Shown: piece by piece, positions 7,264 through 24,803 of the stretch
Numbering within the stretch: the stretch's first letter is position 1
Layout of the letters: each line of letters begins with the position of its first letter
Source: a virus
Virus record (IMG/VR): IMGVR_UViG_3300036670_000245
Location: 1 to 28,626 of that record
DNA: 28,626 nucleotides
Direction: 5' to 3' (one strand)
Program-made: the position numbers and the translations under genes
Notes under the pieces: generated by a model
Database searches by the model: none
Told to the model about the DNA's origin: nothing
The model's input: the letters and a program-made list of their open reading frames with translations, nothing else

Positions 7264-7638
7264 ATGAAAACATACAGTGGGTTTAACACTATCAATCAGT
7301 CCAAAAAATTCAGGATCACTGGTATAGATCTGGTCAAAAGGGATATAATAAATCATTTTTCCATACGCAAGGGAGAAAAACTTATGAATCCAAATTTTGG
7401 CAGTCTGATCTGGAGCATGCTGTTTGAGCCACTGGATGACCAGACCAAGAAGATCATCATTGCTGATGTGGTTAGTATAGTTAATTACGATCCCAGGGTA
7501 GCAGTGGATGATGTGCTAGTACAGGAATTGGGATTAGGTATTAGACTACGAATTTCATTGACCTATATACCCACTGGTCAGACCTCTCTTATGCTGCTGA
7601 CCTTCAACAAAGATACTCAATCATTGACCACTGCATAA
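7264..7638 (+). CDS. 25: Baseplate wedge protein gp25 (GPW/gp25 family)
   Basis: A 124-residue member of the GPW/gp25 family, which sits at the inner baseplate and is thought to help start sheath assembly; relatives occur in type VI secretion and other contractile systems. The family signature is clear: IDLVKRDIINHFSIRKGEKL (21-40) followed by MNPNFGSLIWSMLFEPLD (41-58), then a helix and a C-terminal beta-rich half (LGLGIRLRISLTYIPTGQ). Length is close to that of T4 gp25 (132). No Shine-Dalgarno is visible before the ATG, and the only upstream signal is the AATAAATAC that abuts it. Position between gp5 and gp6 fits a wedge operon. Confidence 0.92.
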   Translation: MKTYSGFNTINQSKKFRITGIDLVKRDIINHFSIRKGEKLMNPNFGSLIWSMLFEPLDDQTKKIIIADVVSIVNYDPRVAVDDVLVQELGLGIRLRISLTYIPTGQTSLMLLTFNKDTQSLTTA

Positions 7639-7685: not shown

Positions 7686-10600
7686 ATGGCAGCAATCACC
7701 AGACAATCTTCACTGTTGGTCCAATCAGACTGGACCAAAATCTACCAAACATTCCGCAATGCGGATTTTCAGAGCTACGACTACGACACTTTACGTAAGT
7801 CCATGATCGACTATCTGCGCACGTACTATCCAGAAGACTTCACTGACTTCACTGATAGCAGTGAATATATTGCACTGATCGACCTGATTGCGTTTCTGGG
7901 ACAAAGTCTTGCGTTTCGCACTGATCTGAATGCTCGTGAGAATTTTATTGATACTGCTGAACGCAGAGATAGCATCCTCAAGCTGGCACGCATGATTAGC
8001 TACAATCCCAAGCGTAATACCCCGGCCACTGGGTATTTAAAGTTTAACAGTATCAGTTCAACTGAAACCATAATGGATAGCAATGGGCTGAATTTGGCCA
8101 ACCTGTTGGTTAGTTGGGACGATGCTAGTAATGAAAATTGGCAGGAGCAATTTACCACAGTAATAAATGCCAGTTTGGTAAATACCCAAGTAGTTGGAAA
8201 GCCTGGTGCTCGCAGTCTAATTAATGGGATTACCACTGATGAGTATGGTGTGAGCGTGGTTGCCACCACAGTGCCGGTGTTTAAGTTCGCCGCACTGGTT
8301 GAAGGCAACACCATGACATTTGAAGCAGTCAGCGCAACCAGTTACGATCAGAACTATATATACGAAAAAGATCCACGACCAACTGGTGTGTTTAACATGT
8401 TATATCGTAATGACAATCAGGGAAATTCCAGTGCTAATACTGGGTTTTTTTTATACTTCAAACAGGGAGATCTAAAGTCACTGGACTTCGCAGTTAATGA
8501 TAGTCTACCCAATCGTGTGGTAAACATTAACTATCCCAGAATTAATAATACTGATACCTGGTTGTATTCACTGAGTACACAAAATATAGTGGATACCCAG
8601 TGGGCACAGGTGCCCACGGTAGCAGGGTTGAATATCATATACAATCAGTCCAACCAACAAAATCTGTTTCAAGTGAATACCACCAGGGACGATCAGATTG
8701 ATTTGGTGTTTGGTGACGGTGCGTTTGCAGCAGTACCACAGGGTAATTTTAGATTTTTTTACCGCCAAAGCAACGGATTAGAATATAAGATCACTCCTGA
8801 TGAAATGCAAGCAGTGTCCATCAGGATTCCATATGTGAGTCGTAACAACCGCGCGGAAATTCTGACCATTGTGGCAGATTTAAACTACACAGTGGCCAAT
8901 GCGTCAGCCGCTGAGTCAATTGAAAGTATACGTACCAAAGCACCACAACAGTATTATACACAGAATCGTATGATCACTGGTGAGGATTACAACACACTAC
9001 CCTACACTAGTTTTAATGATATCCTCAAGGTAAAAACGGTGAATCGCACCAGCAGTGGTATTAGTCGTTATCTGGATGTGATGGATACCAGTGGTAAATA
9101 TTCCAGTACAAATATATTTTCTGATGATGGGCTGATTTATAAAAATTATGCAAACTCCACATCGACTTTTACTTACAATACTAACAGTGATGTGAATCGT
9201 ATATTATACAATGTGGCCAAGCCCATGATCAGCAGCAGAGAAATATCGCATCTGTTCTATGATTCCGCGGTTCCTATCATCACGCCAGTGGCAGTGTGGA
9301 CGCAAACACTAGTGAGTTCTGGTACCAGCGTGGGATACTTTAATGCTGGCGAAGGAATAGCCACCGCCACTGCCAGCGATTTTAGATTTTTGGATACCGG
9401 AGCACTGTTAAAATTTGTCCCCCCTGCAGGATATTATTTTAACAAGGATAACCAATTAATCATGGGCAGTAGCTCAGTGCCCACTGACAAAATGTACATA
9501 TATGCTGCGGTAAATCAGATATCTGGGATTAGGGCCACCTTGAGTCAGGTGATACCCACTGGTGCAGTGATGGAATCATTGATCCCCAAGTTCGTAAATG
9601 ATTGGTCCACTAGCTTGGTGACCAGTATGAGCAATAAAATACTGGCCAATAAAAACTTCGGAGTACGGTATAATATTCAAGCCACTGGGGTTGTACCGGA
9701 CACCACATGGGTACTGGTTGACGCATCGTCATTGAGTCTAGGCACGTTTGATGCCAGCACTGCTGGTACTCAGATGGACAGCAGCTGGTACCTGGCATTT
9801 ACTTATCAGGATGGGCAGTACACCATTACACAGAGAAATCTATATTACTATGCTGAGAGCGCTACTCAAACTAGATTTTACTTTGACCCTCAGGTAAAAG
9901 TGTACGACAGCAACACTGGGTTAACGGTAAGGGATCATGTAAAAGTTCTTAGATCCAACAGTCAACCAGACAATAACGCCGCATTAGCACACGATCAGCT
10001 GTGGTATATATATGATAGTGTATTGCAGCCAGATGGGTATAGAGACACACAAAAAATCCTAGTCACCTTTCCTGATGCAAATAACGATGGGATACCTGAC
10101 GATCCCACATTATTTACACAATTAGTGAGTAGTAGTGCGTCAGTTGGGCATGTGTTTTTTGAAAGAGTAGTTGATTACAGTAGTTTTATAAAATATCAAG
10201 TGTTGGACTCGGATAGAGTAGTAACCATGTATTCGGACAAAAATTCTATATTAAATAATTCAGTGCTATATCAAACTGGACAGTTATTTTACGCAACCGC
10301 AGAGAATAAATTTTATGTATCTGGAAATATTGCACTAGTTGAGGATACCAACCATGTGGCTCGACTGGGTCGGCAGGATATCTATTTTCAGTACCGACAC
10401 AATAGTCCCAATAATCGTAGGATAGACCCTAGTCCCAATAATATCATGGACTTGTACATACTCACTAGAGCATATTATACCAGCTATGCTGCTTGGGTGC
10501 GTGACACTAGTAATCGTGTGATTAAACCAGTGCCCCCTACCACTGAACAATTACGCACCAGTTACTCCAGCTTGGAGAATCTCAAAGCACTCAGTGACAC

Positions 10601-11015
10601 TATTATCTACGACAGTGTTAAGTTTAAGTTAATATTTGGTAGCAAGGCTGATGAGGAATTACGTGCAACTTTCAAGATTGTAAAAAATTCCAGTATTACT
10701 ATCAGTGATAATGATGTCAAGGCTCAGGTAGTGGCGGCCATTAATAGTTATTTTGAGATAGCCAATTGGGACTTTGGTGAAACATTTTACTTCAGCGAAC
10801 TTAGTGCATATTTGCACAATCAGCTGACGCCCAATGTGAGTTCCATTATAATGGTGCCCAATTCTGCCAGTGCACAATTTGGCGGATTATATCAGATTAA
10901 TGCTGAAGCAAACGAAATCATACAGAGTGCAGCCACAGTGGATAATGTGGCGATTATTAATGCAATCACCGCGTCTCAATTAAACCAGTCCGCGGCAGGG
11001 TTAAATACATTATAA
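7686..11015 (+). CDS. 6: Baseplate wedge protein gp6 (baseplate J-like)
   Basis: gp6 forms the inner ring of the baseplate wedges, as dimers that clamp neighbouring wedges. The first 112 residues carry the hallmark block of T4-like gp6: YYPEDFTDFTDSSEYIALID (47-66), FLGQSLAFRTDLNARENFID (70-89), then ERRDSILKLARMISYNPKR (92-110). A baseplate-J-type region follows (VFGDGAFAAVPQGNFRFFYR near 345) with RTKAPQQYYTQNRM and ITGEDYNTLPY at 416-440. At 1109 residues it is well above T4 gp6 (660). The added material lies largely between about 460 and 950 and is mostly beta-rich and unassigned. The C-terminus (SSIIMVPNSASAQFGGLYQI) resembles gp6 ends. It has its own late promoter immediately upstream and is followed after 13 bases by the giant gene. 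Confidence 0.9.
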   Translation: MAAITRQSSLLVQSDWTKIYQTFRNADFQSYDYDTLRKSMIDYLRTYYPEDFTDFTDSSEYIALIDLIAFLGQSLAFRTDLNARENFIDTAERRDSILKLARMISYNPKRNTPATGYLKFNSISSTETIMDSNGLNLANLLVSWDDASNENWQEQFTTVINASLVNTQVVGKPGARSLINGITTDEYGVSVVATTVPVFKFAALVEGNTMTFEAVSATSYDQNYIYEKDPRPTGVFNMLYRNDNQGNSSANTGFFLYFKQGDLKSLDFAVNDSLPNRVVNINYPRINNTDTWLYSLSTQNIVDTQWAQVPTVAGLNIIYNQSNQQNLFQVNTTRDDQIDLVFGDGAFAAVPQGNFRFFYRQSNGLEYKITPDEMQAVSIRIPYVSRNNRAEILTIVADLNYTVANASAAESIESIRTKAPQQYYTQNRMITGEDYNTLPYTSFNDILKVKTVNRTSSGISRYLDVMDTSGKYSSTNIFSDDGLIYKNYANSTSTFTYNTNSDVNRILYNVAKPMISSREISHLFYDSAVPIITPVAVWTQTLVSSGTSVGYFNAGEGIATATASDFRFLDTGALLKFVPPAGYYFNKDNQLIMGSSSVPTDKMYIYAAVNQISGIRATLSQVIPTGAVMESLIPKFVNDWSTSLVTSMSNKILANKNFGVRYNIQATGVVPDTTWVLVDASSLSLGTFDASTAGTQMDSSWYLAFTYQDGQYTITQRNLYYYAESATQTRFYFDPQVKVYDSNTGLTVRDHVKVLRSNSQPDNNAALAHDQLWYIYDSVLQPDGYRDTQKILVTFPDANNDGIPDDPTLFTQLVSSSASVGHVFFERVVDYSSFIKYQVLDSDRVVTMYSDKNSILNNSVLYQTGQLFYATAENKFYVSGNIALVEDTNHVARLGRQDIYFQYRHNSPNNRRIDPSPNNIMDLYILTRAYYTSYAAWVRDTSNRVIKPVPPTTEQLRTSYSSLENLKALSDTIIYDSVKFKLIFGSKADEELRATFKIVKNSSITISDNDVKAQVVAAINSYFEIANWDFGETFYFSELSAYLHNQLTPNVSSIIMVPNSASAQFGGLYQINAEANEIIQSAATVDNVAIINAITASQLNQSAAGLNTL

Positions 11016-11028
11016 CAGACAGAAATCA

Positions 11029-14000
11029 ATGGCAAACAATATCAAGACAACAGACTTTCTTCCAGAAGTATTCCGTACCGACACTAACCGTAAGTTTCTA
11101 AACGCTACCTTGGACCAATTGGTCAGTGAGCCCAAGTTCAAGAAAGTTAACGGGTACATTGGGCGTAAATTTGCACCTACTTATCAGGCCACTGATGACT
11201 ACATCAAGGAAATTAATATCGATCGACAGAACTACCAGCTGGAGCCAGCCGCAGTGGTGGTTGACCCTGATACTGATACTGTGGAGTTCTATGGTAACTA
11301 TGTGGACATGGTAAATATTATCAAGTACTACGGTGGTAAAACTGGAAATCACAGCAGACTGTTTAGTGGAGACATGTACAGCTATGATAGTCACTTTGAT
11401 TTTGATAAATTTGTAAACTTTAGCCAGTATTACTGGCTACCTGATGGCCCAGATGCCGTCACAGTTTCGGCAAGTGGTGTTCCCTTGGAATATACCTGGG
11501 ATGTCACCGTGGATGCAGCCACTGGTGCATATACTTTTTCTGACACTGGTCCTAATAATAAAAACCCCAATCTGGTGTTGGCACACGGTGGGAAATATAA
11601 ATTCAACATCACTGACAGTGAGTTTTGGATACAGGCAAAATCCAGCTTCACTGGGGTTGATCCATCCTTTCCTAACATCAATGTACGCAGTGTGCTGGGA
11701 GTAGAAAATAACGGTGCTAGTACTGGTACAGTATCTTTTAATGTGCCGCAATTCAATGGGCAGCTACGTTTTACTGGAATGCCGGTGGCGCAAACCGTAG
11801 ATTATGCCACTACACTGGATTATCGTGATTTACAAGGTGCACTTCAGACTGAAGTTATATCCAAGTTTGGTGGCATTGATGGAGTAATTACTGGATTAAA
11901 TAATAAAAAAATAATTTTTGTGGACAGTCAGCTGGACGATGAATTTTGGTCTAGTTATATTGTTGATCAAGCACTGGCAACTGAATTAGGTGATATTTTA
12001 CAGCTAAATGATAGAGATGCTGGGGTAAGCAGTCCTATCACTATTCCTGAATCATTAAGGACCAATGTTTGGGTAATATACGTGGATCAGGACGGATACA
12101 TATCACTGAATCCGTCAGCAGTTGTAAATTCCAATGAGCAAGTGTACGTTAACAGCGGGAATCAGAATGCCACCCGTAGTTACTACATTGATTATTTAGG
12201 ACACTATGTAGCAATACCATTAATCACCGCGCCACTATCCACCCTGTACTATCAGAATGCTCTCAGTGGCAGAGCTGCTGGGTTATTCAGCATAGTGGAG
12301 CCCAGTGCAGTGTCCATAGACCCAAGTACAGATATCATTGGCCGCTCCAGCTATGTTAGCCCCAGCGGTGTGATATTTACCAATGGATTAAAAATAAAAT
12401 TTGATAGCACTGCTGGGTCCTTTAGTAATACTGAATATTTTGTGGAAGGTGTGGGTACTTCCATTCAATTGATTGCTGTCAGTGGTCTGGTGGCGGCTGA
12501 ATTAGGTGATAGCTCGCCAGATTATTTAACTATCAATCGTGGTAGTATTGATTCCAATGCTTGGAGCAGATCAAATCGTTGGTTCCATATAGATATACTC
12601 AGCGTCACTGCTGGGTACAACACCAGCGAACTTATTTTAGATCAAGCTGCACGAGCCAATAGGCCCATAATTGAATTCTCCGCTGGTCTTAAATTATTTA
12701 ACCACGGCGCAGTGAGCAAAGGGACAGTGGATATACTGGACACCACTATCACTGATGCGTATCAGGTAGTGGAGAATTCAGTACTGGATAACCCAATCTC
12801 AGCAGTGTACTCAGTGGGCAGCCAGAGAGTTACGCTGACTCATGGTGACCGTGTAATTTTCTCTGCTGACACAAATGCATTGGTTAGCAGCAAGATCTAT
12901 ACTTTTGAAATTGTTAATAACAGTGCAGATAATTTTATCAATACCTATGTGGGGATCATACGTGAGACAGCTGATCCAGTGATCCTAGCAGGGCACAGTG
13001 TGTTAGTAAAAAATGTGGCCAAATCATACTGGTATAATGGTGTAAACTGGGTTTTATCACAGCAAAAAACCATACTGAATCAGGCGCCGCTATTTGATGT
13101 ATTTTCATCCAGTGGCGTGGGTTTTGGGGATAATAGTACATATGTTAATTCCACTTTTCAAGGAACTTCCATATTCAGCTATCGCCAGGGCACTGGTAAA
13201 AATGATACTGTGCTGGGGTTTCCGCTAAGCTATCGTACCTTTAACAATGTTGGTGACATACAGTTTAATAACAATTTTGACGTGGACCAATTTAGTTACC
13301 TGGTGGGTGCCAGTACACTGCCAGTGGCTGTTAGCACTGGATACTTACATATCACCAAGTCACTTAGTGAGGTTGTGGAAAGAAATATCTGGCAGCCAGC
13401 TGCTGAACAGAGTAAACAATACCAGGTGATCACTTATGTTGCAGACGGAGTTTCCAATCTATTTGAGATTGACGTACTCCCGGCTCCTAGTACAGATCTA
13501 CCCAATATCAAGGTACTGATCAACAGCAGAACAATCACAGTAAATGATTTTGGATTGGCGCGTGTGGGTGCCAGACTGGCAGTATTAGTGAATCCCGATA
13601 TGCTAGCGCCTAGCACCACAGTGGACATTTTACTCTACAGCGGCAGCAGTAGTGCACTGAGCTATTATCAGGTTCCACAGAACATGGATGTAAATCCATT
13701 GAATCAGAAATTTGATAGTTTAACACTAGGACAAATGCGTAACCATCTGGGTAAACTAGCAGAAAACAGTCAGCTGGTACTAGGTCCAGTTCCAGGATCC
13801 AGTAACTTGAGAGATTTAAATGTCAAGTCCCAGGGAGGTACCATACTTCGTCATGCTGCGCCGGCAGTGTATGCTGACTTGTTCCTAGTGGATGGAAACA
13901 TGAATTTCATGGAGTCCATCAGGCTAGCTCAGCGAGAATACAGTAGGTTCAAGAATAAAATACTGGAGATAAGCACCAGGGTAGAAGTGAATGTGCAGGA

Positions 14001-17000
14001 CATTGCTGGTACACTGGATGAAATATTATCCACTATTAATGCAGTAAAAAATAATAGTTTTAGTTGGTTTCATAGCGACATGTTACCCTGGGGCTTCAAT
14101 AAAAATGTGCTACCAGCCTATACTGTATTTGACCCTAGAATTCGAACATATGAGTTAACAACTAGATTTGACGACACTATACTCAGTGCACTGGCTGTAC
14201 TGATATATATAACCAAAACAGTGAACGGTAAAAAAACCACACAGTTATTGACTAAAGGACTGGATTATGAATTCAGCAAGCTAAGCCCCAGTTTTGCCAT
14301 TCATGCTAGTTATAATCTAAACTATGGTGACATACTCACTGTGGTGGAATACAGTAGCACAGACGGCAACTACCTACCTGAAACTCCCACTAAATTGGGA
14401 TTGCATCCTAGCTTTTTGCCTAAACTATATCTGGATGATACATACAGTAATCCCATGCTGGTAATTCAGGGACACGACGGCAGTATTACTCCCTCGTTTG
14501 GTGATTATCGGGACGACCTGCTGCTAGAATTCGAATTAAGAATATATAATAACCTCAAACAGCCATTTGCCAATCAGCATTTATATGATCAGCAGCCGGG
14601 TAAGTTCAGGATCACTGACTACTCATTGACTGAATATAATGAAGTATTAACTTCTAGTTTTCTAACCTGGGCTGGTGCCAATCGAGTTGACTTTACTAAT
14701 AACAAACTATTCCAGAGTAATAATCCGCTAACCTGGAATTACAAAAATTTTAGAGATACAATAAATGCTGAGTTCCTGCCTGGTGCCTGGCGAGCAGTGT
14801 TCCATTGGTTATTTGATACTGATCGTCCTAATACCCATCCCTGGGAGATGCTAGGATTCAGTGGTATGCCAGACTGGTGGGTGGCCCGATATGGTGTGGC
14901 CCCCTACACTGGTGGAAATTTGTTACTGTGGAGTGAGCTGAGTCTGGGCTATATACATGCAGGCCCACGTGCCGGGATCAGTAGTGCATATGCAAGACCA
15001 GGTCTGCTAACTATTATACCAGTTGATGATTCTGGTAACCTGTTGAGTCCAGAAAAATTCTGTGTGATAGGATTTAGTAGCTTGGATGCCAATGTAAGTT
15101 TTGCAGTGGGTGATCAGGGCCCAGTGGAAACCGCCTGGAGACGCAGTAGTGATTATCCATATGCATTACAGCAGGCGCAAGCACTAACCCGCCCGGCTGA
15201 ATATTTTAGTCACCTGGTGAATGTGGATAGATTTAAATACGATGCGCTAGTGGGACAATATTTGGTTACTGGCACTAATAGTCATCTGACTCCTACTCAG
15301 ATTGAGATTAATGGGCGCACAGATGATACTGGTGAAATTCAACGCACTGCTGGGTATATTAATTGGATCTGTGAGAATTTAAAAAATACTGGAATTGCTG
15401 ATCCACAGGATCGGATTAAACGTAATCTAAAAAATCTTGATGTATTACTCAGCTACAAGGCATCTGGATTCCTAGACAAAGGCTCAGTCAAGATACTAGC
15501 AGAACAAGGTAGCCCCACGAGCACCAATACCAGTGTGATCGTGCCTGACGAGAATTATCGTATTCAGCTGTACAAGAGTGTCCCAGTTGCTAAACTCACA
15601 TATAGCGCAGTAATTGTAGAAAAAAGTCAAAACGGATATACGGTCAGTGGTTACAGTATGTCTGACCCATATTTCATCATTGTGCCCAGCATACCTGATA
15701 GTAGCGCATATACTGTTACGTCAGGAAAACTAACTGGTATAATTTATAAGAACTATGAAAAAGTTCGAGTGAGAGTGCCATATGGATTTGAATTTACTAG
15801 CCAGCAGGAGGTTGTAGACTTTTTGGTCAGCTATCAGCGACAGTTACAGAGTGTAGGATTTGTGTTTAACGATTTTGATTACGACCTAGTTGCTAAACAG
15901 GACTGGGTACTCAGTGCCAGGGAGTTCCTACAATGGAGTCAGCAGGGATGGCGCCCTGGGAATGTAATCATACTCAGTCCAGTAAACCAGAGCATTAAAG
16001 TGGTAAGCACTGACAGCGTGGTGGACGAGATAACCAGTACCCCGGTGGGTTCCAAAATGCTGGACCCAAATTTCCAAGTAATCAAGAAAAATAATTTCAC
16101 TGTGTTGCGTGTGGATAACCAGTTCAGCGTAACCACTATCAAACCACAGACTATTGCTTATGCAGAACTGAATATGGTACAGTATGAACATGTGTTAATT
16201 TTTGATAACCGCACAGTTTTTAATGATATCATTTATAATCCAGGGACTGGAAATCGACAGTATCGTCTGAAGCTAGTGGGGATCAAGACTGCTGATTGGT
16301 CTGGTGCACTGAACCCGTCAGGATTTGTATACAACGATTCGCATGTGGATGACTGGCAGCCAGGTATAGACTACAAACGTGGTGATTTGGTTACATACAA
16401 GACCAACTATTATGTAGCACTGACTAAATTGATAGCCAGTGACCTGTTTATTAGATCCAGCTGGAAACGTATTGATCGCAACAGTATCAAAACTGGAATG
16501 CTTCCGAACTTTGCCACCAATGCAAAGCAATTCGAGTCATTCTACGATGTGGATAATCAACCCATTGACCCAAGCTTTAATTTCTATAGCAACGGATTAA
16601 TTGGATTTCGTGAGCGCGGGTACCTCACTGATTTAGCACTGGATATTGAAACTCAGGTTAAATTTTATCAGGGATATATCAAGCAAAAGGGCACCAAGAA
16701 TGCCATACTCGCGCTGGCCCGTGCCCAGGTCGCTGGCTCCAGAAATTTGATCGAGCTCAGTGAAGAATGGGCAGTGCGAGTGGGTGAATATGGTGCCCTG
16801 GATAGTAATCGGTATGTGGAACTCATATTACCAGAATCATCAGTGACTTCCAATCCTGCACCAGTGCAGCTGATTGCTAACTCACAGGTACCCAGTAGTA
16901 CCATATTACAGTACAAGATACAGGATTTATATCAGGCCAGTGCTAACACTGTGACTGACATATTTGAGGTATATAAAAGTGCAGCCGATCGGACAACTTT

Positions 17001-20000
17001 ACCTACAGCAGGGTATGTGAATATTGATGATGTGGATGCAACTGCATATGATCTGACTGACTTTACTAAACTAGCTGACCTGTTGCCCAGGTTAGTGCAA
17101 GGATTTACTATATGGTGTGCCAAAGACTTTCAAGGTCATTGGAATGTATTTCGTGCTAGTGAGACAGGCACGAATGTAATGAGTATCGCATACAGCATAG
17201 ATAATATTGCCAGTGTTACTACCAACAGATCACATACCCTGAGAGTTGGTGATGTAATTGCCATCAAACAGCTGGACAGCAGATTCGATGGCTTTTATTC
17301 AGTGAATCAGGTTACTGGGGGAAATACATTCTCCATAGTACTACGCGCCAATTATACTGCGCTGCGCAGCCTGATATCGCTGAGCGGTAGCGGTGTATTA
17401 TTTAAACTATCCAGCATGGTGGTGGATAATATAACGCAGATCAACGACATACAGCCACTCAGTGGCTGGAACGATCAGGATAGAGTATGGGTCAACAATG
17501 ATAATGCCGCTGAACAGTGGGCCACATATGTAAAATCCACACCCTGGACCAGTGATGTCAAGATACTAATGGACAATATTGACTATCGTGGGCAGGACCA
17601 ATTTGGTGCCAGTGTACAATTGAGTGATGATGGGTTAACCATGTATGCGGGTGCACCCGGAAGTGATACTGGTCGAGCAGCAATTTTTACCAGAATCACT
17701 GGTGGTGACTGGTATGAGAATAGTAATTTTACCTCAACAAGTAGCAGCACACGGCTGTTTGGGTCAGCTATTTCAGCCAATGATAAAACTTTTATAGTAG
17801 CTGCACCTGCTAGTAATAACAATGATGGTAGAGTTTTTGTATATAATATTAATCAATCTGATGGTATCACCCTGTCACAAGTACTCACAGTTCCCGGGGC
17901 CATTGGTGGCAGGTTTGGTTATAGTTTGAGTAGCAGCCAGGACGGAAATTGGTTATATGTAGGATCACCAGGAAACAACCAGGTACATGTTTATGCATGG
18001 ACCAACCTACCAATATTGGTAGCTCCTGCTACTATTTCAGGAGATGGCATCACTAGTAATTTTACTTTACCAGCGGGTTTCGCTAATAATAAGATTTCTA
18101 CCGCCAGTGATGTGCTGGTCACAGGAAATTTTGGTACATTGATTCCTGATATTGAATATCAGATCACTGGTAGCACTGATAATCCTGCAATTGAATTTAC
18201 AGTTGCACCCATTCCAGGGTCAAATACCACGGTCGCTATCCATAGTAGGTATCAGGAATCCACTATGTTCAGTGGTACGGGTGAATTCGGGCATTCAGTA
18301 AAATCCAACACCACTGGTGATCTAGTACTAGTAGGGGCGCCTGGTGCAAATATCAGTTCAATATACAGCAGAGTATCTGAGGGATTCAGAGCCACTGGAA
18401 TTACTAATAGTACATTTACTGTGTCTCGTCCCATATCAGAGAGTAAAAATATATACATAAATGATATTTTACAGACTGAAAAACTAGATTATGATTTAGT
18501 GGGCAACAGTATATATTTTACCAGTACTCTTCCCAGTGGGGTGTTGGTGACAGTGGAGACCACTGAGTTTGCACTAGTTCAAGAATTATCACAAGGATAT
18601 GATCAGAAATTTGGGCAAGTTGCTGACTTGATTGCTGGCGATATTATTGCAGTTTCTTCGCCAGCATATTCCACTACCAATTATGCTAGTGGTGCTGTGA
18701 GTATATTTTTTAATTACGGACTGGTGTACAATGAAGCACAGGGAACAGTAGTGGATCCAGTAATCAATCCTGGTGACAGTATTTTTATTAATGGTGTGGA
18801 AATAATATTTTCCACTGCCACTTTACTGGGTGCAGTGAATAGTATTAATCTAGGAAATTTACCAGGAGTGCTGGCTGAACAGATGGACGGTACATTAAAA
18901 ATTAATGGTGTAAATTCATTAAACATATTGCCCGGTCGTGGTAATGCATTACAGTCACTGGGTATTGAGGTGTATCAGCTGGTGCAGGATATTACTCATC
19001 CGTATGCTGATAACACTGAACACTTTGGTACCACAGTTAAACTCAGTGATGCTGGTGGACAATTGTTAGTGGGTAGTGTGGGGGCCGCAATATTTGATTA
19101 CACAATATTTGATCGTGAGTCCACTACCTATGACAGCTATAGTACCTACTTCAATGATCAGATTGGCAATACCGGTGCAGTATATGTGTATCAGCTGCTA
19201 CAAACTGACATTTCCACAGTGGTTGATCAGTATGCTTTCACACAGCAGTTGCGACCTGAGCAGGTGGGCAGTGACTTTAACTTTGGGTCGTCAATTGACA
19301 CTCATGGTGGTACCATAGTAGTAGGCGCCACCAATGACAGCGCAGTGTTGGTTAATGGTGGCAGTGTATTCAGTTTCACCGCCAATCCAGGCAGCCAAGG
19401 ATGGTCACTGGGTAATGCATTTGGGCCACTGGTTGAGCCATTGACCATAGATAAAATTTACATATATAATACAGTTACCGAGAAAATTCTCAGCAGATTG
19501 GACTTCATTGATCCAGTCAAGGGTAAAATACTGGGAATTGCACAGCAGGACATAGACTTTATGGTGGAAGCTGACCCAGCCATATATAATAATCAGGCAC
19601 CGGGTGCAACCTTCCATTGGACTGACCAGCAGATGGGTAAGATCTGGTGGGATACCAGCAGCATGCGATATCTAAACTACGAGCAGGGTGATATTGTTTA
19701 TCGCAATGCACACTGGGGGGAATTGTTTCCGGGTAGTGTGATCAGCGTATATGAGTGGGTTAGCAGTGCAGTATTGCCCAGCCAGTATATCACCACTGGC
19801 GGTAACGGGGTTCCGAGAAACACTGACAACTCTAAATATGTTGCCTATACTCGGGTGGATGCTAGTACTGGAATGTTCAGTACCATGTATTATTTTTGGG
19901 TGTCGGGAAAAACATCAGTGAGTGTAGAAGCCAGTAAAGTCAACAGTGTGAGTGCTATCAGTAGATTAATATCCAATCCTAAAGAGCAGGGTATTAGCTA

Positions 20001-23000
20001 TGCGGCGGCCATCAGTACTGACGCAATTAGTCTGTTTAACGTGGCCAGTCAGTTGACTGCCAGTCAGGTTGCGGTGCATATTTCCTATAGCCCAGTGAAT
20101 AACACTGATATCATACACAGTGAGTATGAATTAATATCAGAGAATTCAGCCACAGTACCAGTTCCTACACGGATAGTGGATAAGTTGCAAGACAGTTTAG
20201 CTGGGCTGGATAGGTTTGGTCTGATTGTACCAGATCCCACTCTACGTCCAGTGAATCGGACTGGAATTAGTATCCGTCCACGTCAGGGAATGTTTGTAAA
20301 TCGTCAATTGGCATTGGAAAATTTTGTAAAATTTTGTAATAATGTTTTCCTATTATATCCTATCGTGGATCAGACTGATCTGTCCATACTGGGCAGCCAG
20401 GAGCTAACTCCAGCGTTTAGCTTGGGGCAGTGGGCACAACAGGTAGGGACATATGCTGAGCTTACCTATATTGACTTAACATTGATATCTGATGGACACA
20501 CAGTACTGATTAATAGTGATGAGCGATATTATGATGCAGCGTATAACACTACATTATGGACTATTAATCAGTGGTCCACTGATACTAAATCCTGGAGTAT
20601 TAATAAGATTCAAAGCTACAATACCAACTTGTATTGGAAAAAGGTTGATTGGTGTGATGCTACTTTTGACGTTACAGTAAAACCCACGCACACAGTGGAT
20701 TATTTTTATCAAATTGAAAAACTGTCCCTTGCTGCTGGTGATACTGTGCGATTAAATGACAACGGCGCAGGAAGATTTGCATATTACGGCTATGACGGTA
20801 CCACAATAACGCTGAGATGCATACAGGCTGGTACCATACAATTAAGTTCCACCATATACGATCTGGCCAGTGGTAACATGGGGTTTGATAACGACAACTT
20901 TGATACCATCAGATTTGATCAGACACCCAATCAGGAAGTAAGATATATTATTGAGTCAGTGTACCGAGATATTTTTGTCGGTCAATTGAAAATCGAGTTC
21001 AACACATTATTCTTTAGCCTGGTAAATTATATCTTTAGTGAGCAACAATCCACTGATTGGATATTTAAAACTAGTTTCGTGAATGTATTACACAAGATTC
21101 GTGATCTAGCACAGTATCCCAGCTACAAGCGAGACAATACTGATTATTATCGGAGTTATATTGATGAGGTTAAGCCCTATCGTACACAGGTACGAGAATA
21201 TGTACCAGTGTACCCTGGTGCAGATCCAGCACATGTGGGTGCCACTGACTTTGATTTACCGGGATATTTTGATGCAGTAAGTGGGACATTCCGTAGCCCG
21301 GACGGAACTTATGCATCAGATTCCCAGACATTGCAATCTAACCAGTATGCTGATTGGACTAGAAATCATACCTTTAGTGTTACTGGGGTGGAAGTAATCA
21401 CTGGTGGAACAGGATACTCTCTGGTTCCCACGGTGACCATCAGTGGTGGCGGCGGGACAGGTGCGCTGGCAGTTGCGTTAATTGATATCAGTACTGGTGC
21501 GATTACGTCAATTCAGTTAAAAAATGCTGGCAGCGGTTATACTTCCACTCCAATGGTAACTGTTAACGGAAACGGAACTGGTGCAGTGTTGAGTGCCAAG
21601 CTGCGTACGGAATATTTTTCATCCAATGTAGCAATGAGCTATAATGCTCCACGTAGTATTACCACTGAACTGAAGTTTGATCGTATTTCTTATACTTCCA
21701 ACATGGTAACATGGTCGCCCAACACTGAGTACCAATTGCAGCTGGGCGGTGATGGGATCACAGTGTGGGTTGAAAGTGGTGATCTGGTAACACATCAGGG
21801 CCTGGTGTATCAGCCGTTGGCTGGTGTAAGCAACAGCGAACCAACTTTTGATGCAGGATTATATCAGCTGGTATCAGCTGGAAATGTTTTGTTGCATAAT
21901 AATGATAGAGTTAGTGCATACTATGCGCCAGGCATTGGTATGCCAGTGAAGGATTTAAGTATACTAGTTGACGGCATAGACTATCCCGGAACACAAGTGC
22001 TTGGCGCAGGATTTCAGAATTTTACCAGTAATCTAATTATTGGAGGAAATATATCATTCTTCAATGCAAACTCCAGTATAGTGAGTACAGATAAGACAGT
22101 GAATTTCATTGAGCTGGGGTATCAATTGAATCAGACCATCAGAGTATATGGATCGGATCTAAACGATACCAACTTTGGTATTGTGAATTTCACATCAGTA
22201 ATTGGGACTGAGAGTACTGCTAGTCCATATTCCATGATAGTGGATACTAATACTGTAAGCAATGAGTTTAACAGTGTGAATCTCACATTTGGATATACTG
22301 ATTTCAACGACGTAAACACACTGGACAGTGTGGTTTCCAGTGACTACTTGGATTCAGCACTGGGTACTAGACCCCAGGACATTTTGGTGCAGGGTGGAGC
22401 ATATGTGGATTTATATGCTAGTCATGCCCCTCAGGAAATGATTCCTGGGCGAATGTTTGATGCGTTGAACATCAGTGTGTATACTCAGTTGGATAGTGGT
22501 ACTGTAGGGTATCGCATCAGTCATAATATGCAAACCAATCCAGCTGTGTACATTGACGAAGTAACCTGGAATATCACCAGTACGCTCACTGATGCACAGA
22601 AATTGGAGCAGTACACTGCAAAAAATACAGTGCCCAAGTATTTCAAAATCAGCGATAGTGAAACCACAGTTAACCGTAGTACATCACTGACTCAGGCACT
22701 ATATCTGACTGACACACTGATACATGTAGTAAATGCTGCACTGATATCTCCACCAGATTCCAGCGTAAATCGTCCCGGCGTAGTGTATATAAACGGAGAG
22801 CGTATTACGTTTTGGTCAATGGACCTGAAAAATCACACGCTGGGAAATTTAAGGCGTGGTACTGATGGCACTGGCGCGCCAGCTGTGCACCCAGTCAGCT
22901 ATGTCAAGCAGGTAAACACATTCGTGAACGGGCAAATAGTAGAAACCACAATGGTAGCTGATGTGATCACTGATGTAGTTGATGGCAGTGATCAGCAAGA

Positions 23001-23529
23001 ATTGCCTGATATGTTTAGATCGCACACCACCTCCTGGTTGAATACTTTTAGGACAGCCAATTATATTGTGGATAACAACAATAATTTCCTAGTTGATAAT
23101 TTTGAAGCTTCAATCATCGACGTGCAGCAACTGGCCAGCAGTACATTGATAGCCGGCGCCAGTGTCCTGCCCAGTGATATTGTTGACAACCAGGGCAATG
23201 TGGTTGTAGATAATTTTGGTACTACAATTGTTGCCAGTATCCCGTATACTTTACCCAGCAGTAGCTCAGTGTCAGGGCTATTTGTAATTGCTAATCCAGC
23301 GGTTAACCGGGGACAATTGTTGACCAATGTTGCAATTGCATATGATTCAGTAACCGGTGACACTGAGTTGGGTAATTGGGTTGTTACTGATTCATCGCCT
23401 GGCATTAATGCCAAGTTGGTGGATGATCTGGATCAACAGTTGGGTCAAGTGGGATTTGATAGTGCAATTCTTGATGGGTCAGGACTTAGCGGTAGCCGAA
23501 CACCACAGGCGGTATTCCTGAAGAACTAG
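11029..23529 (+). CDS. Giant baseplate/fibre-associated virion structural protein (4166 residues)
   Basis: A single uninterrupted 12.5-kb frame. The N-terminus (FLPEVFRTDTNRKFLNATLD, YIGRKFAPTYQATDDYI, RQNYQLEPAAVV) matches what I recall of very large uncharacterised structural proteins in environmental T4-like phages. Visible modules: a DGxxxxF beta module (about 803-880); a WxxGxxYxxGDLVxYxxxYYVAL segment like small carbohydrate-binding modules (1776-1800) with a related one at 3562-3600; seven FG-GAP repeats (2192-2785); a GKIWWDTSSMRYLNYEQGD block (2870-2888); YIDEVKPYRTQVREYVPVY (about 3376-3394); a GGTGY/GSGY glycine module (3454-3525); INGERITF and LGNLRRGTDGTG (from 3921); and a short tandem repeat at 4013-4069. 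No membrane segment is evident. It follows gp6 by 13 bases without a Shine-Dalgarno. T4 has gp7 in the equivalent place, so a peripheral wedge or fibre-docking role is inferred. Confidence 0.75.
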   Translation: MANNIKTTDFLPEVFRTDTNRKFLNATLDQLVSEPKFKKVNGYIGRKFAPTYQATDDYIKEINIDRQNYQLEPAAVVVDPDTDTVEFYGNYVDMVNIIKYYGGKTGNHSRLFSGDMYSYDSHFDFDKFVNFSQYYWLPDGPDAVTVSASGVPLEYTWDVTVDAATGAYTFSDTGPNNKNPNLVLAHGGKYKFNITDSEFWIQAKSSFTGVDPSFPNINVRSVLGVENNGASTGTVSFNVPQFNGQLRFTGMPVAQTVDYATTLDYRDLQGALQTEVISKFGGIDGVITGLNNKKIIFVDSQLDDEFWSSYIVDQALATELGDILQLNDRDAGVSSPITIPESLRTNVWVIYVDQDGYISLNPSAVVNSNEQVYVNSGNQNATRSYYIDYLGHYVAIPLITAPLSTLYYQNALSGRAAGLFSIVEPSAVSIDPSTDIIGRSSYVSPSGVIFTNGLKIKFDSTAGSFSNTEYFVEGVGTSIQLIAVSGLVAAELGDSSPDYLTINRGSIDSNAWSRSNRWFHIDILSVTAGYNTSELILDQAARANRPIIEFSAGLKLFNHGAVSKGTVDILDTTITDAYQVVENSVLDNPISAVYSVGSQRVTLTHGDRVIFSADTNALVSSKIYTFEIVNNSADNFINTYVGIIRETADPVILAGHSVLVKNVAKSYWYNGVNWVLSQQKTILNQAPLFDVFSSSGVGFGDNSTYVNSTFQGTSIFSYRQGTGKNDTVLGFPLSYRTFNNVGDIQFNNNFDVDQFSYLVGASTLPVAVSTGYLHITKSLSEVVERNIWQPAAEQSKQYQVITYVADGVSNLFEIDVLPAPSTDLPNIKVLINSRTITVNDFGLARVGARLAVLVNPDMLAPSTTVDILLYSGSSSALSYYQVPQNMDVNPLNQKFDSLTLGQMRNHLGKLAENSQLVLGPVPGSSNLRDLNVKSQGGTILRHAAPAVYADLFLVDGNMNFMESIRLAQREYSRFKNKILEISTRVEVNVQDIAGTLDEILSTINAVKNNSFSWFHSDMLPWGFNKNVLPAYTVFDPRIRTYELTTRFDDTILSALAVLIYITKTVNGKKTTQLLTKGLDYEFSKLSPSFAIHASYNLNYGDILTVVEYSSTDGNYLPETPTKLGLHPSFLPKLYLDDTYSNPMLVIQGHDGSITPSFGDYRDDLLLEFELRIYNNLKQPFANQHLYDQQPGKFRITDYSLTEYNEVLTSSFLTWAGANRVDFTNNKLFQSNNPLTWNYKNFRDTINAEFLPGAWRAVFHWLFDTDRPNTHPWEMLGFSGMPDWWVARYGVAPYTGGNLLLWSELSLGYIHAGPRAGISSAYARPGLLTIIPVDDSGNLLSPEKFCVIGFSSLDANVSFAVGDQGPVETAWRRSSDYPYALQQAQALTRPAEYFSHLVNVDRFKYDALVGQYLVTGTNSHLTPTQIEINGRTDDTGEIQRTAGYINWICENLKNTGIADPQDRIKRNLKNLDVLLSYKASGFLDKGSVKILAEQGSPTSTNTSVIVPDENYRIQLYKSVPVAKLTYSAVIVEKSQNGYTVSGYSMSDPYFIIVPSIPDSSAYTVTSGKLTGIIYKNYEKVRVRVPYGFEFTSQQEVVDFLVSYQRQLQSVGFVFNDFDYDLVAKQDWVLSAREFLQWSQQGWRPGNVIILSPVNQSIKVVSTDSVVDEITSTPVGSKMLDPNFQVIKKNNFTVLRVDNQFSVTTIKPQTIAYAELNMVQYEHVLIFDNRTVFNDIIYNPGTGNRQYRLKLVGIKTADWSGALNPSGFVYNDSHVDDWQPGIDYKRGDLVTYKTNYYVALTKLIASDLFIRSSWKRIDRNSIKTGMLPNFATNAKQFESFYDVDNQPIDPSFNFYSNGLIGFRERGYLTDLALDIETQVKFYQGYIKQKGTKNAILALARAQVAGSRNLIELSEEWAVRVGEYGALDSNRYVELILPESSVTSNPAPVQLIANSQVPSSTILQYKIQDLYQASANTVTDIFEVYKSAADRTTLPTAGYVNIDDVDATAYDLTDFTKLADLLPRLVQGFTIWCAKDFQGHWNVFRASETGTNVMSIAYSIDNIASVTTNRSHTLRVGDVIAIKQLDSRFDGFYSVNQVTGGNTFSIVLRANYTALRSLISLSGSGVLFKLSSMVVDNITQINDIQPLSGWNDQDRVWVNNDNAAEQWATYVKSTPWTSDVKILMDNIDYRGQDQFGASVQLSDDGLTMYAGAPGSDTGRAAIFTRITGGDWYENSNFTSTSSSTRLFGSAISANDKTFIVAAPASNNNDGRVFVYNINQSDGITLSQVLTVPGAIGGRFGYSLSSSQDGNWLYVGSPGNNQVHVYAWTNLPILVAPATISGDGITSNFTLPAGFANNKISTASDVLVTGNFGTLIPDIEYQITGSTDNPAIEFTVAPIPGSNTTVAIHSRYQESTMFSGTGEFGHSVKSNTTGDLVLVGAPGANISSIYSRVSEGFRATGITNSTFTVSRPISESKNIYINDILQTEKLDYDLVGNSIYFTSTLPSGVLVTVETTEFALVQELSQGYDQKFGQVADLIAGDIIAVSSPAYSTTNYASGAVSIFFNYGLVYNEAQGTVVDPVINPGDSIFINGVEIIFSTATLLGAVNSINLGNLPGVLAEQMDGTLKINGVNSLNILPGRGNALQSLGIEVYQLVQDITHPYADNTEHFGTTVKLSDAGGQLLVGSVGAAIFDYTIFDRESTTYDSYSTYFNDQIGNTGAVYVYQLLQTDISTVVDQYAFTQQLRPEQVGSDFNFGSSIDTHGGTIVVGATNDSAVLVNGGSVFSFTANPGSQGWSLGNAFGPLVEPLTIDKIYIYNTVTEKILSRLDFIDPVKGKILGIAQQDIDFMVEADPAIYNNQAPGATFHWTDQQMGKIWWDTSSMRYLNYEQGDIVYRNAHWGELFPGSVISVYEWVSSAVLPSQYITTGGNGVPRNTDNSKYVAYTRVDASTGMFSTMYYFWVSGKTSVSVEASKVNSVSAISRLISNPKEQGISYAAAISTDAISLFNVASQLTASQVAVHISYSPVNNTDIIHSEYELISENSATVPVPTRIVDKLQDSLAGLDRFGLIVPDPTLRPVNRTGISIRPRQGMFVNRQLALENFVKFCNNVFLLYPIVDQTDLSILGSQELTPAFSLGQWAQQVGTYAELTYIDLTLISDGHTVLINSDERYYDAAYNTTLWTINQWSTDTKSWSINKIQSYNTNLYWKKVDWCDATFDVTVKPTHTVDYFYQIEKLSLAAGDTVRLNDNGAGRFAYYGYDGTTITLRCIQAGTIQLSSTIYDLASGNMGFDNDNFDTIRFDQTPNQEVRYIIESVYRDIFVGQLKIEFNTLFFSLVNYIFSEQQSTDWIFKTSFVNVLHKIRDLAQYPSYKRDNTDYYRSYIDEVKPYRTQVREYVPVYPGADPAHVGATDFDLPGYFDAVSGTFRSPDGTYASDSQTLQSNQYADWTRNHTFSVTGVEVITGGTGYSLVPTVTISGGGGTGALAVALIDISTGAITSIQLKNAGSGYTSTPMVTVNGNGTGAVLSAKLRTEYFSSNVAMSYNAPRSITTELKFDRISYTSNMVTWSPNTEYQLQLGGDGITVWVESGDLVTHQGLVYQPLAGVSNSEPTFDAGLYQLVSAGNVLLHNNDRVSAYYAPGIGMPVKDLSILVDGIDYPGTQVLGAGFQNFTSNLIIGGNISFFNANSSIVSTDKTVNFIELGYQLNQTIRVYGSDLNDTNFGIVNFTSVIGTESTASPYSMIVDTNTVSNEFNSVNLTFGYTDFNDVNTLDSVVSSDYLDSALGTRPQDILVQGGAYVDLYASHAPQEMIPGRMFDALNISVYTQLDSGTVGYRISHNMQTNPAVYIDEVTWNITSTLTDAQKLEQYTAKNTVPKYFKISDSETTVNRSTSLTQALYLTDTLIHVVNAALISPPDSSVNRPGVVYINGERITFWSMDLKNHTLGNLRRGTDGTGAPAVHPVSYVKQVNTFVNGQIVETTMVADVITDVVDGSDQQELPDMFRSHTTSWLNTFRTANYIVDNNNNFLVDNFEASIIDVQQLASSTLIAGASVLPSDIVDNQGNVVVDNFGTTIVASIPYTLPSSSSVSGLFVIANPAVNRGQLLTNVAIAYDSVTGDTELGNWVVTDSSPGINAKLVDDLDQQLGQVGFDSAILDGSGLSGSRTPQAVFLKN
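17602..19383 (+). other. Seven-repeat FG-GAP beta-propeller domain inside the giant protein
   Basis: Seven FG-headed repeats occur at residues 2192 (FGASVQLSDDGLTMYAGAPG), 2244 (FGSAISANDKTFIVAAPA), 2296 (FGYSLSSSQDGNWLYVGSPG), 2420 (FGHSVKSNTTGDLVLVGAPG), 2528 (FGQVADLIAGDIIAVSSPA), 2666 (FGTTVKLSDAGGQLLVGSVG) and 2752 (FGSSIDTHGGTIVVGATN). Each is followed by a strand ending in a pattern such as GRVFVY or GAVYVY. This is the integrin-alpha-type FG-GAP pattern, and seven is the classic blade number. Spacing is about 52 residues between the first three, then widens to 86-138 because extra modules sit between blades. The propeller role, such as ligand binding or protein docking, is inferred. 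Confidence 0.75.
21388..21603 (+). repeat. Glycine-rich GGTGY/GSGY repeat module in the giant protein
   Basis: Residues 3454-3525 contain two matching halves: GGTGYSLVPTVTISGGGGTG and, after ALAVALIDISTGAITSIQLK, NAGSGYTSTPMVTVNGNGTG. Such GxGY...P.VTI.GGGGTGA units are frequent in phage fibre and surface proteins and are expected to form a small beta structure. Confidence 0.6.
23065..23229 (+). repeat. Short tandem protein repeat near the giant protein's C-terminus
   Basis: Two 17-residue copies are separated by 21 residues: IVDNNNNFLVDNFEASI (23065-23115) and IVDNQGNVVVDNFGTTI (23179-23229). The DNA copies have diverged at many positions but keep the GATAATTTTG core, so the similarity is mainly at the protein level. 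Confidence 0.7.
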
Positions 23530-23579: not shown

Positions 23580-24803
23580 ATGGCTGGGACAATAACAATT
23601 GGTAACTTACCAACACAGGCTGCTGTATTTGACGCTACTGCGTTTCCTGCAGAAACCGCAAGTGTTACCTACAAAATCAGTGCCCTGGCACTAAAAACTT
23701 ACCTGAGCAGCAATGTGAGTGCTCTTACTACCACTGGATTAATAACGGCCAGTGGTGGCATTGCTACTTCATATATCGCGGCCACCGCGAATATTTCTGC
23801 ACCACTGATCAGTGGTGGCACTATCACTGGCGCAATCATTGGAAATATAGGTACAGTGTTAGTGGGGTCGTTGAGTACCGCCAATCAACCTAATGTGACT
23901 GGTCTAGGTACATTGGTATCTGGTACCTGGAATGCAGGCGTAATTTCACCTGCATACGGTGGCACTGGGGTGAACAATGGTAACAACAGTCTCACAGTGA
24001 CTGGGGTAAGTTTCGTTAATCAGGACCTGAGAGTCTCAGCCAGCCCATCCTTTGCAGGAGTCACTGCCACCGTATTCAACGGCGGGGGCGCCGGATTATT
24101 TGGCACCGCCAGTGGATTGAGTATTGGTGGCCTGGCTGCCACTGCGACACAGGCTGCCAGCGCAACAAAATTAGCCACTGCCAGAGCAATTAACGGAGTG
24201 AATTTTGATGGAACCAGTGATATAAATATCACTGCGGTGGCTGCTGCCAACACTCTCAGTGGTACGGTACTGGCAGTGAACGTTACTTCCTCTAGTTTGA
24301 CATCACTGGGTACACTTTCTGGTCTGGTGGTTAGTGGCGCAATTCAGCCCACTACCAATGGAACAATCAACCTGGGTAGTGCTGGTAACAAATTTGCCAC
24401 CATATATGGATTAGCTACTAGTGCACAATATGCTGACTTGGCTGAAAATTATGTGGCTGATGCCGTGTACCCTGCTGGTACAGTTGTGGTATTTGGTGGT
24501 AGCGCGGAAGTCACAGTACATACTACCTCACACTGTCCACACGTGGCTGGTGTGGTTTCTACCAATCCAGCCTATTTAATGAATAGCGAAACTGCCGGAG
24601 TACCAGTGGCACTGGCTGGACGGGTTCCGTGTCTGGTCATGGGTCCTGTCAGTAAAGGTACCAGATTAGTAAATGCAGGGCCTGGCTATGCTGGTGCACT
24701 GGATCGTTACCTATACGACCCAGGCTGTGGTATTGGGTATGCATTGGAAGATCACCCAAATTCAACCATTAAAATGATTGAAGTAGCTGTATTGAAGTTT
24801 TAA
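23580..24803 (+). CDS. Tail fibre protein with repeated shaft modules and conserved C-terminal domain
   Basis: A 407-residue, Gly/Ala/Ser/Thr-rich protein with fibre signatures. Residues 102-130 (NQPNVTGLGTLVSGTWNAG, then AYGGTG) and 238-255 (SSLTSLGTLSGLVVSGAI) are related shaft modules. ATKLATARAINGVNFDGTS at 195-213 is a very common phage tail-fibre motif. NLGSAGNKFATIYG (264-277) followed by AQYADLAENYVADAVYPAG (282-300) begins a C-terminal domain of about 125 residues with HVAGVVSTNPAYLMN and GVPVALAGRVPCLVMGPVSK. That domain resembles C-terminal domains of phage appendages that include the intramolecular-chaperone (Peptidase_G2-like) group; I cannot confirm autocleavage. Good Shine-Dalgarno and own late promoter. 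Exact location on the virion is unknown. Confidence 0.75.
   Translation: MAGTITIGNLPTQAAVFDATAFPAETASVTYKISALALKTYLSSNVSALTTTGLITASGGIATSYIAATANISAPLISGGTITGAIIGNIGTVLVGSLSTANQPNVTGLGTLVSGTWNAGVISPAYGGTGVNNGNNSLTVTGVSFVNQDLRVSASPSFAGVTATVFNGGGAGLFGTASGLSIGGLAATATQAASATKLATARAINGVNFDGTSDINITAVAAANTLSGTVLAVNVTSSSLTSLGTLSGLVVSGAIQPTTNGTINLGSAGNKFATIYGLATSAQYADLAENYVADAVYPAGTVVVFGGSAEVTVHTTSHCPHVAGVVSTNPAYLMNSETAGVPVALAGRVPCLVMGPVSKGTRLVNAGPGYAGALDRYLYDPGCGIGYALEDHPNSTIKMIEVAVLKF

Follow-up and report, generated by a model that had tools for sequence, protein, structure and literature searches.

A predicted seven-bladed FG-GAP propeller of integrin-alpha type in one hairpin of a giant virion protein from an uncultured jumbo phage

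Introduction

Among the closest described counterparts of the domain reported here are beta-propellers at phage baseplates. In the jumbo myophage PhiKZ, the C-terminal part of gp131 is a seven-bladed propeller (PDB 4GBF) located at the baseplate periphery, for which receptor binding has been suggested and is unconfirmed (PMC4901313). The same source describes the receptor-binding protein of Staphylococcus phage phi11 as a baseplate beta-propeller with a proposed GlcNAc-binding cavity (PMC4901313). FG-GAP repeats also occur in stand-alone proteins of phages and giant viruses, such as the Atu_ph07 'hemagglutinin' A0A2L0UZX4, which have similar predicted propellers. In Sinorhizobium phage Phosso (PV764938.1), at about 48.4-68.9 kb, most of 42 FG-GAP_2 matches fall in two open frames, of 3182 and 3702 aa, and the distribution of these matches suggests that the Phosso giant proteins may be chains of several propellers. 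A search of the literature available without subscription found no paper joining FG-GAP to phage, baseplate/propeller, tail fiber or integrin.

Results

The giant protein and its neighbours

The window, meaning the whole stretch of DNA analysed here, is a 28.6 kb virus record from an uncultured jumbo phage. From left to right it begins with a late sigma factor on the reverse strand, followed by virion and gp53-like wedge proteins, a gp5-like hub with an endolysin/chitinase-like part, gp25, gp6, a giant protein of 4166 residues and fibre-like proteins. The gp25- and gp6-like wedge genes lie directly upstream of the giant gene and the fibre-like genes downstream (Table 1). The endolysin/chitinase-like domain is fused to the hub protein at 4473-7256 (phrog_181 and others). 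A tail-fibre-like gene at 23580-24803 sits between the giant gene and a 217-aa gene, and an ORF is found at the same position in L001, L014, L020 and L066; in L008/L009 and most loci with a bare propeller or empty hairpin, the giant gene is followed directly by a gene of roughly 230 aa.

The core of the giant protein is matched by phrog_10938 (E=0, 1070.7 bits), and distant homologues with about 25-30% identity are present in the named jumbo phages RaK2, CBB, PA5oct, Atu_ph07, Phosso and SCTP-2. The record of the PA5oct homologue is marked ESI-MS/MS (mass spectrometry), and the CBB homologue CBB_236, which adjoins gp6 and gp25, was reported as a structural protein, detected by 21 peptides (PMC5259590). 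An earlier reading made from the sequence alone (the sequence-only reading) had placed the propeller in a phage structural protein, and the detection of these homologues in virions by mass spectrometry bears this out. The PHROGs category of phrog_10938 is head and packaging, and the gene neighbours in the named phages checked are baseplate wedge genes. One relative of the giant protein (L017 / L103) has an open frame exceeding 6460 aa. Upstream of the propeller, at 16354-16422, the giant protein has a chitin-binding type 3-like motif (CBM_5_12, 22.4 bits, just under the cut-off), and a PA5oct-like homologue carries an annotation for a chitin-binding type 3-like domain.

The position of the giant gene after gp25 and gp6 parallels that of T4 gp7 in the T4 order gp6-gp7, and it is this gene order that suggests homology to gp7. 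With small alignments, hhalign of the core against T4 gp7, gp8 and gp10 revealed no homology, and the probability against five gp7 sequences was <1%. A model of the adjoining core (residues 2795-3520, 26 sequences) had low global confidence (pTM 0.46) and no fold match in the PDB, so gene order is what places the propeller at the baseplate.

Table 1. Coordinates of the features in the window, with the basis for each assignment
Feature	Position	Strand	Basis
gp25-like baseplate wedge subunit (context)	7264..7638	+	phrog_43 / phrog_261
gp6-like baseplate wedge subunit (context)	7686..11015	+	phrog_10646 1.3e-290, phrog_219 1e-26
Giant virion/baseplate-associated protein, 4166 aa, propeller carrier (phrog_10938 family)	11029..23529	+	single ORF; homologues in jumbo phages
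Predicted seven-bladed FG-GAP beta-propeller including N-terminal closing strand (residues 2171-2794)	17539..19410	+	AF2 model; integrin alpha alignment
Blade 1 (residues 2185-2228)	17581..17712	+	leave-group-out blade HMM 31.3 bits
Blade 2 (2236-2281)	17734..17871	+	blade HMM 21.9 bits
Blade 3, strands 1-3 (2290-2328), motif DGNWLYVGSPG	17896..18012	+	blade HMM 41.5 bits
Module 1, strand 3-4 hairpin of blade 3 (about 2334-2404)	18028..18240	+	DSSP of model; homologous to module 2
Blade 4, strands 1-3 (2413-2455)	18265..18393	+	blade HMM 27.3 bits
Module 2, strand 3-4 hairpin of blade 4 (about 2456-2505)	18394..18543	+	DSSP; module HMM 71.5 bits
Blade 5, strands 1-3 (2522-2568)	18592..18732	+	blade HMM 9.9 bits, weakest
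Module 3, strand 3-4 hairpin of blade 5 (about 2569-2645), flagellin-IN-like	18733..18963	+	module HMM 108.1 bits
Blade 6 (2658-2729), long strand 2-3 loop common to many relatives	19000..19215	+	16.0 bits; alignment
Blade 7 (2744-2790), predicted closure by N-terminal strand near 2173-2179	19258..19398	+	23.2 bits; DSSP strand model 19-25

Seven repeats and a predicted closed propeller

Residues 2185-2790 of the giant protein contain seven FG-GAP repeats. On the isolated residues 2180-2790, Pfam FG-GAP_2 (PF14312) scores 38.8 bits (E=1e-9) against a cut-off of 23; against the whole 4166-aa protein it reaches 20 bits, under threshold. A search of the genome with PF13517 (FG-GAP_3) returned nothing, and FG-GAP_2 is the fitting family. 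A blade HMM trained on 257 blades from relatives, with the group nearest to the window left out, found exactly seven repeats at 9.9-41.5 bits; its sole further match scored -2.2 bits, and the top score in 200 shuffles of the giant protein was 5.6 bits. The count of exactly seven in the sequence-only reading is thereby confirmed, as is the spacing it described, with blades 1-3 close together and gaps of 88, 72 and 96 residues between HMM matches after blades 3, 4 and 5. Among propeller-bearing slots of relatives, the HMM count was seven in 59 of 72 and 6 or 8 in the remainder. The strand 2-3 loop of blade 6 (19080-19190) has an FDSxTTxFDxxSTxFxDxIxxSGAVYVY-like sequence found in many relatives, and should lie on the face opposite the modules.

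Structure prediction agreed with the proposed seven-bladed, integrin-alpha-like fold. An AlphaFold2 model of residues 2155-2835, made with seven homologues, had a pLDDT of 76.7 and a pTM of 0.82. In VIA-align, all of its blades aligned with integrin alpha propellers (Z 36-38, 2.6-3.0 A, about 340-360 residues, model residues 17-640), and Foldseek concurred. The predicted model has four-stranded blades and terminal strands that would close the ring, with the N-terminal strand (model 19-25) at the position of the integrin closing strand; we infer closure because the model aligns to closed seven-bladed propellers. As modelled, the region forms a complete integrin-alpha-type FG-GAP propeller with seven blades. 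In a PDB sequence search, a propeller profile matched integrin alpha-IIb at E=0.02, which is not significant. The window propeller has no match to the calcium pattern [DN]x[DN]x[DN]G, and DxDxDG occurs 4 times in the slots of 113 relatives. We rejected an integrin-style calcium site in the propeller, as the motif is missing from the window. A Pfam scan of the 4166-aa protein found no integrin thigh/calf Ig-like domains or membrane parts.

Modules within the blades

By DSSP, the strand order in blades 3, 4 and 5 of the model is 1-2-3-module-4. Together with the HMM gaps, this supports the module insertions after blades 3, 4 and 5 noticed in the sequence, and assigns each to a strand 3-4 hairpin. 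Modules 1 and 2 are mutually homologous (hhalign 98.3%, E=2.7e-14), and module 3 is unrelated to both. The module 3 of one relative matches PF07196 Flagellin_IN (24.6 bits, cut-off 22.7); the window copy has no Pfam match. Weak matches of modules 1 and 2 to CBM_X2 and CoV_NSP2_C fell under the cut-off and were disregarded. Some relatives have a bare propeller with no modules (e.g. L072, L096), others have modules after blades 4 and 5 only (L053, L054, L089, L165, L177) or after blades 3 and 5 (L081), and the window and most others have them after blades 3, 4 and 5.

In propeller topology, strand 3-4 loops and strand 1-2 loops share a face, and the ligand face of integrins is formed by strand 2-3/4-1 loops. 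Because strand 3-4 loops pair with the 1-2 side, the modules should exit opposite, pointing away from an integrin-type ligand face. The suggested analogy to integrin ligand-binding loops thus fares poorly: topology would put the modules on the other face, and DxDxDG is absent.

One hairpin, empty, filled or swapped

Between two conserved core blocks, the giant protein is highly variable among IMG/VR relatives, whose contigs measure 250-375 kb. The flanks of this region form a hairpin (W-x-VY...turn...W-x-x-x-R...P-x-VD), and across about 115 relatives the propeller occupies this one single hairpin. The hairpin is empty in the outgroups PA5oct, SCTP-2, Atu_ph07 and L234, as well as in L068, L110, L111, L113, L116, L122, L129, L140 and L144, which are nested among propeller-bearing phages. 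The empty hairpin of L068 reads GWAVYTYNGSAWVRTRQQSPSVD, and the downstream core of the propeller-bearing L117-L119 is 64-66% identical to that of L068. FG-GAP repeats are absent from the slot in the six named phages examined, the homologues of RaK2, PA5oct, Atu_ph07 and SCTP-2 lack the propeller, and none of the named isolated phages examined has one in the slot. A tblastn search of 50,697 named phages with the propeller gave no match; the flanks of the same protein match about 60 records.

In L090 (8477-10138), the hairpin that elsewhere holds the propeller contains a YHYH domain (PF14240, E=5.8e-31). Slots without FG-GAP in L193-L196 resemble the L090 slot by eye. A LamG-like domain in SCTP-2 and L249, for which Pfam gave no match, was considered as another occupant; it is not counted as a swap because the hairpin is intact (RWAVYYFNSGKWNLDYKEQ) and the domain lies just upstream of it.

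A FastTree tree of the downstream core was built from 115 rows: 99 with propeller, 12 without, 1 with YHYH and 3 other. SCTP-2 and Atu_ph07 are labelled 'other' despite their empty hairpins, which leaves the nested losses unaffected. The propeller state changes at least 6 times on this tree, 4 of these changes being forced by starred branches, and empty rows are nested among propeller rows. The core tree by itself cannot separate gain from loss, and deep placements are uncertain given the length of the outgroup branches. That the outgroups are empty and that further empty lineages are nested within the tree suggests a single gain of the propeller, after which it was lost several times and replaced once.

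Both core stretches that flank the propeller are better conserved than the propeller itself in 18 of 21 related pairs; identity averages 0.62 in the propeller, against 0.71 and 0.74 in the flanks. As the pairs were hand-picked and share ancestry, the faster divergence is a tendency and not a test. Divergence above that of neighbouring structural parts, as expected of a receptor-binding protein, is seen in those 18 pairs.

Possible functions

We favour, with moderate confidence, an accessory role in host-surface recognition or adhesion; we infer the propeller's position in the virion, its exposure and its binding function. An autonomous propeller domain would be inserted in the turn of one beta-hairpin of the giant virion protein, whose gene adjoins baseplate wedge genes of T4-like jumbo phages. 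Its first strand probably closes blade 7, bringing both ends together, and since these ends adjoin, the propeller could sit on the hairpin and leave the host fold undisturbed. In blades 3, 4 and 5, the outer (strand 3-4) hairpins carry one small beta-rich module each, and these three modules would shape what the propeller binds. Such a domain would most likely project from the baseplate rim, tunable by its modules and removable without breaking the virion. That close relatives have the hairpin empty or filled with another domain suggests that the virion has here an exchangeable part for surface recognition. Its loss, its swapping and its faster divergence speak for an accessory domain for surface recognition rather than for an obligatory scaffold; however, a non-adhesive accessory role would likewise account for the faster divergence and the dispensability. 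We see an even case for a two-tier nested, exchangeable host-recognition device, in which the hairpin would be an evolutionary socket, either vacant or occupied by an integrin-like propeller or a YHYH domain, and the blades second-level sockets for small modules.

The main rival is an internal docking platform, in which the propeller face or the modules would hold tail fibres or baseplate subunits with no host contact. The propeller lies within a giant protein adjoining wedge genes, fibre-like protein genes come next, and the similar modules 1 and 2 have a related module elsewhere in the giant proteins of some relatives, all as such a platform might have it. However, close relatives without the propeller keep the same downstream gene types, an unrelated YHYH domain replaces it in one lineage, and it evolves faster than the core, so that we consider internal docking unlikely. 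As the genes downstream are of the same types whether the propeller is present or the slot is empty, the propeller is not tied to a particular fibre set, and a platform on which every fibre set depended becomes less likely. The sequence-only reading had offered receptor contact or protein docking; of the two, a putative receptor-contact role fits the loss, the swapping and the faster divergence, and docking of the kind that all fibre sets require has lost ground.

Repeated loss or gain of the propeller with the rest of the giant protein intact would also be expected of a size or stability element, or of a neutral passenger decorating the baseplate without a specific partner. Such an element seems improbable to us: about 100 relatives retain seven blades, and most of those with modules have them at the same three positions; a neutral passenger would show neither. 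That the repeats form no closed seven-bladed propeller, as the weak blade 5 (9.9 bits) and HMM counts of 5, 6 or 8 blades in a few relatives might hint, is hardly credible given the model's pTM and its alignment to closed seven-bladed propellers over model residues 17-640.

Discussion

Natural relatives with an empty site or a swapped domain have otherwise similar cores, which makes the function of the propeller directly testable. If it is an adhesin, uncultured jumbo phages would have a widespread second layer of host recognition besides tail fibres, and virus proteins would employ the same scaffold as animal adhesion receptors.

Like the integrin alpha propeller, the window propeller has seven FG-GAP blades and extra domains inserted into it, at about 15% identity. 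Integrin alpha has the calcium motif DxDxDG, whereas the window propeller does not. The alpha-I insertion site of integrins lies between blades 2 and 3, in contrast to the inserts described here, which occupy the strand 3-4 hairpins of blades 3-5. The common fold gives no evidence of a common function.

Among viral proteins, the stand-alone FG-GAP proteins are separate polypeptides, whereas the window propeller is inserted in a baseplate-adjacent giant protein. The RaK2-, PA5oct- and Atu_ph07-like giant proteins of phrog_10938 have the same core and gene position as that of the window, but the slot is without FG-GAP in the six named phages examined. The phi11 receptor-binding protein, as described in the part of the source that covers it, is five-bladed and trimeric and belongs to a siphophage, and that description gives no FG-GAP basis, unlike the window propeller (PMC4901313). 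PhiKZ gp131 shares a seven-bladed propeller at a jumbo myophage baseplate; comparing the two by that source's description, gp131C is the C-terminal domain of another protein, whereas the window propeller is a hairpin insertion in a wedge-adjacent giant protein. Baseplate beta-propellers are already known, and what differs here is the nested, exchangeable insertion in a giant protein next to the wedge genes.
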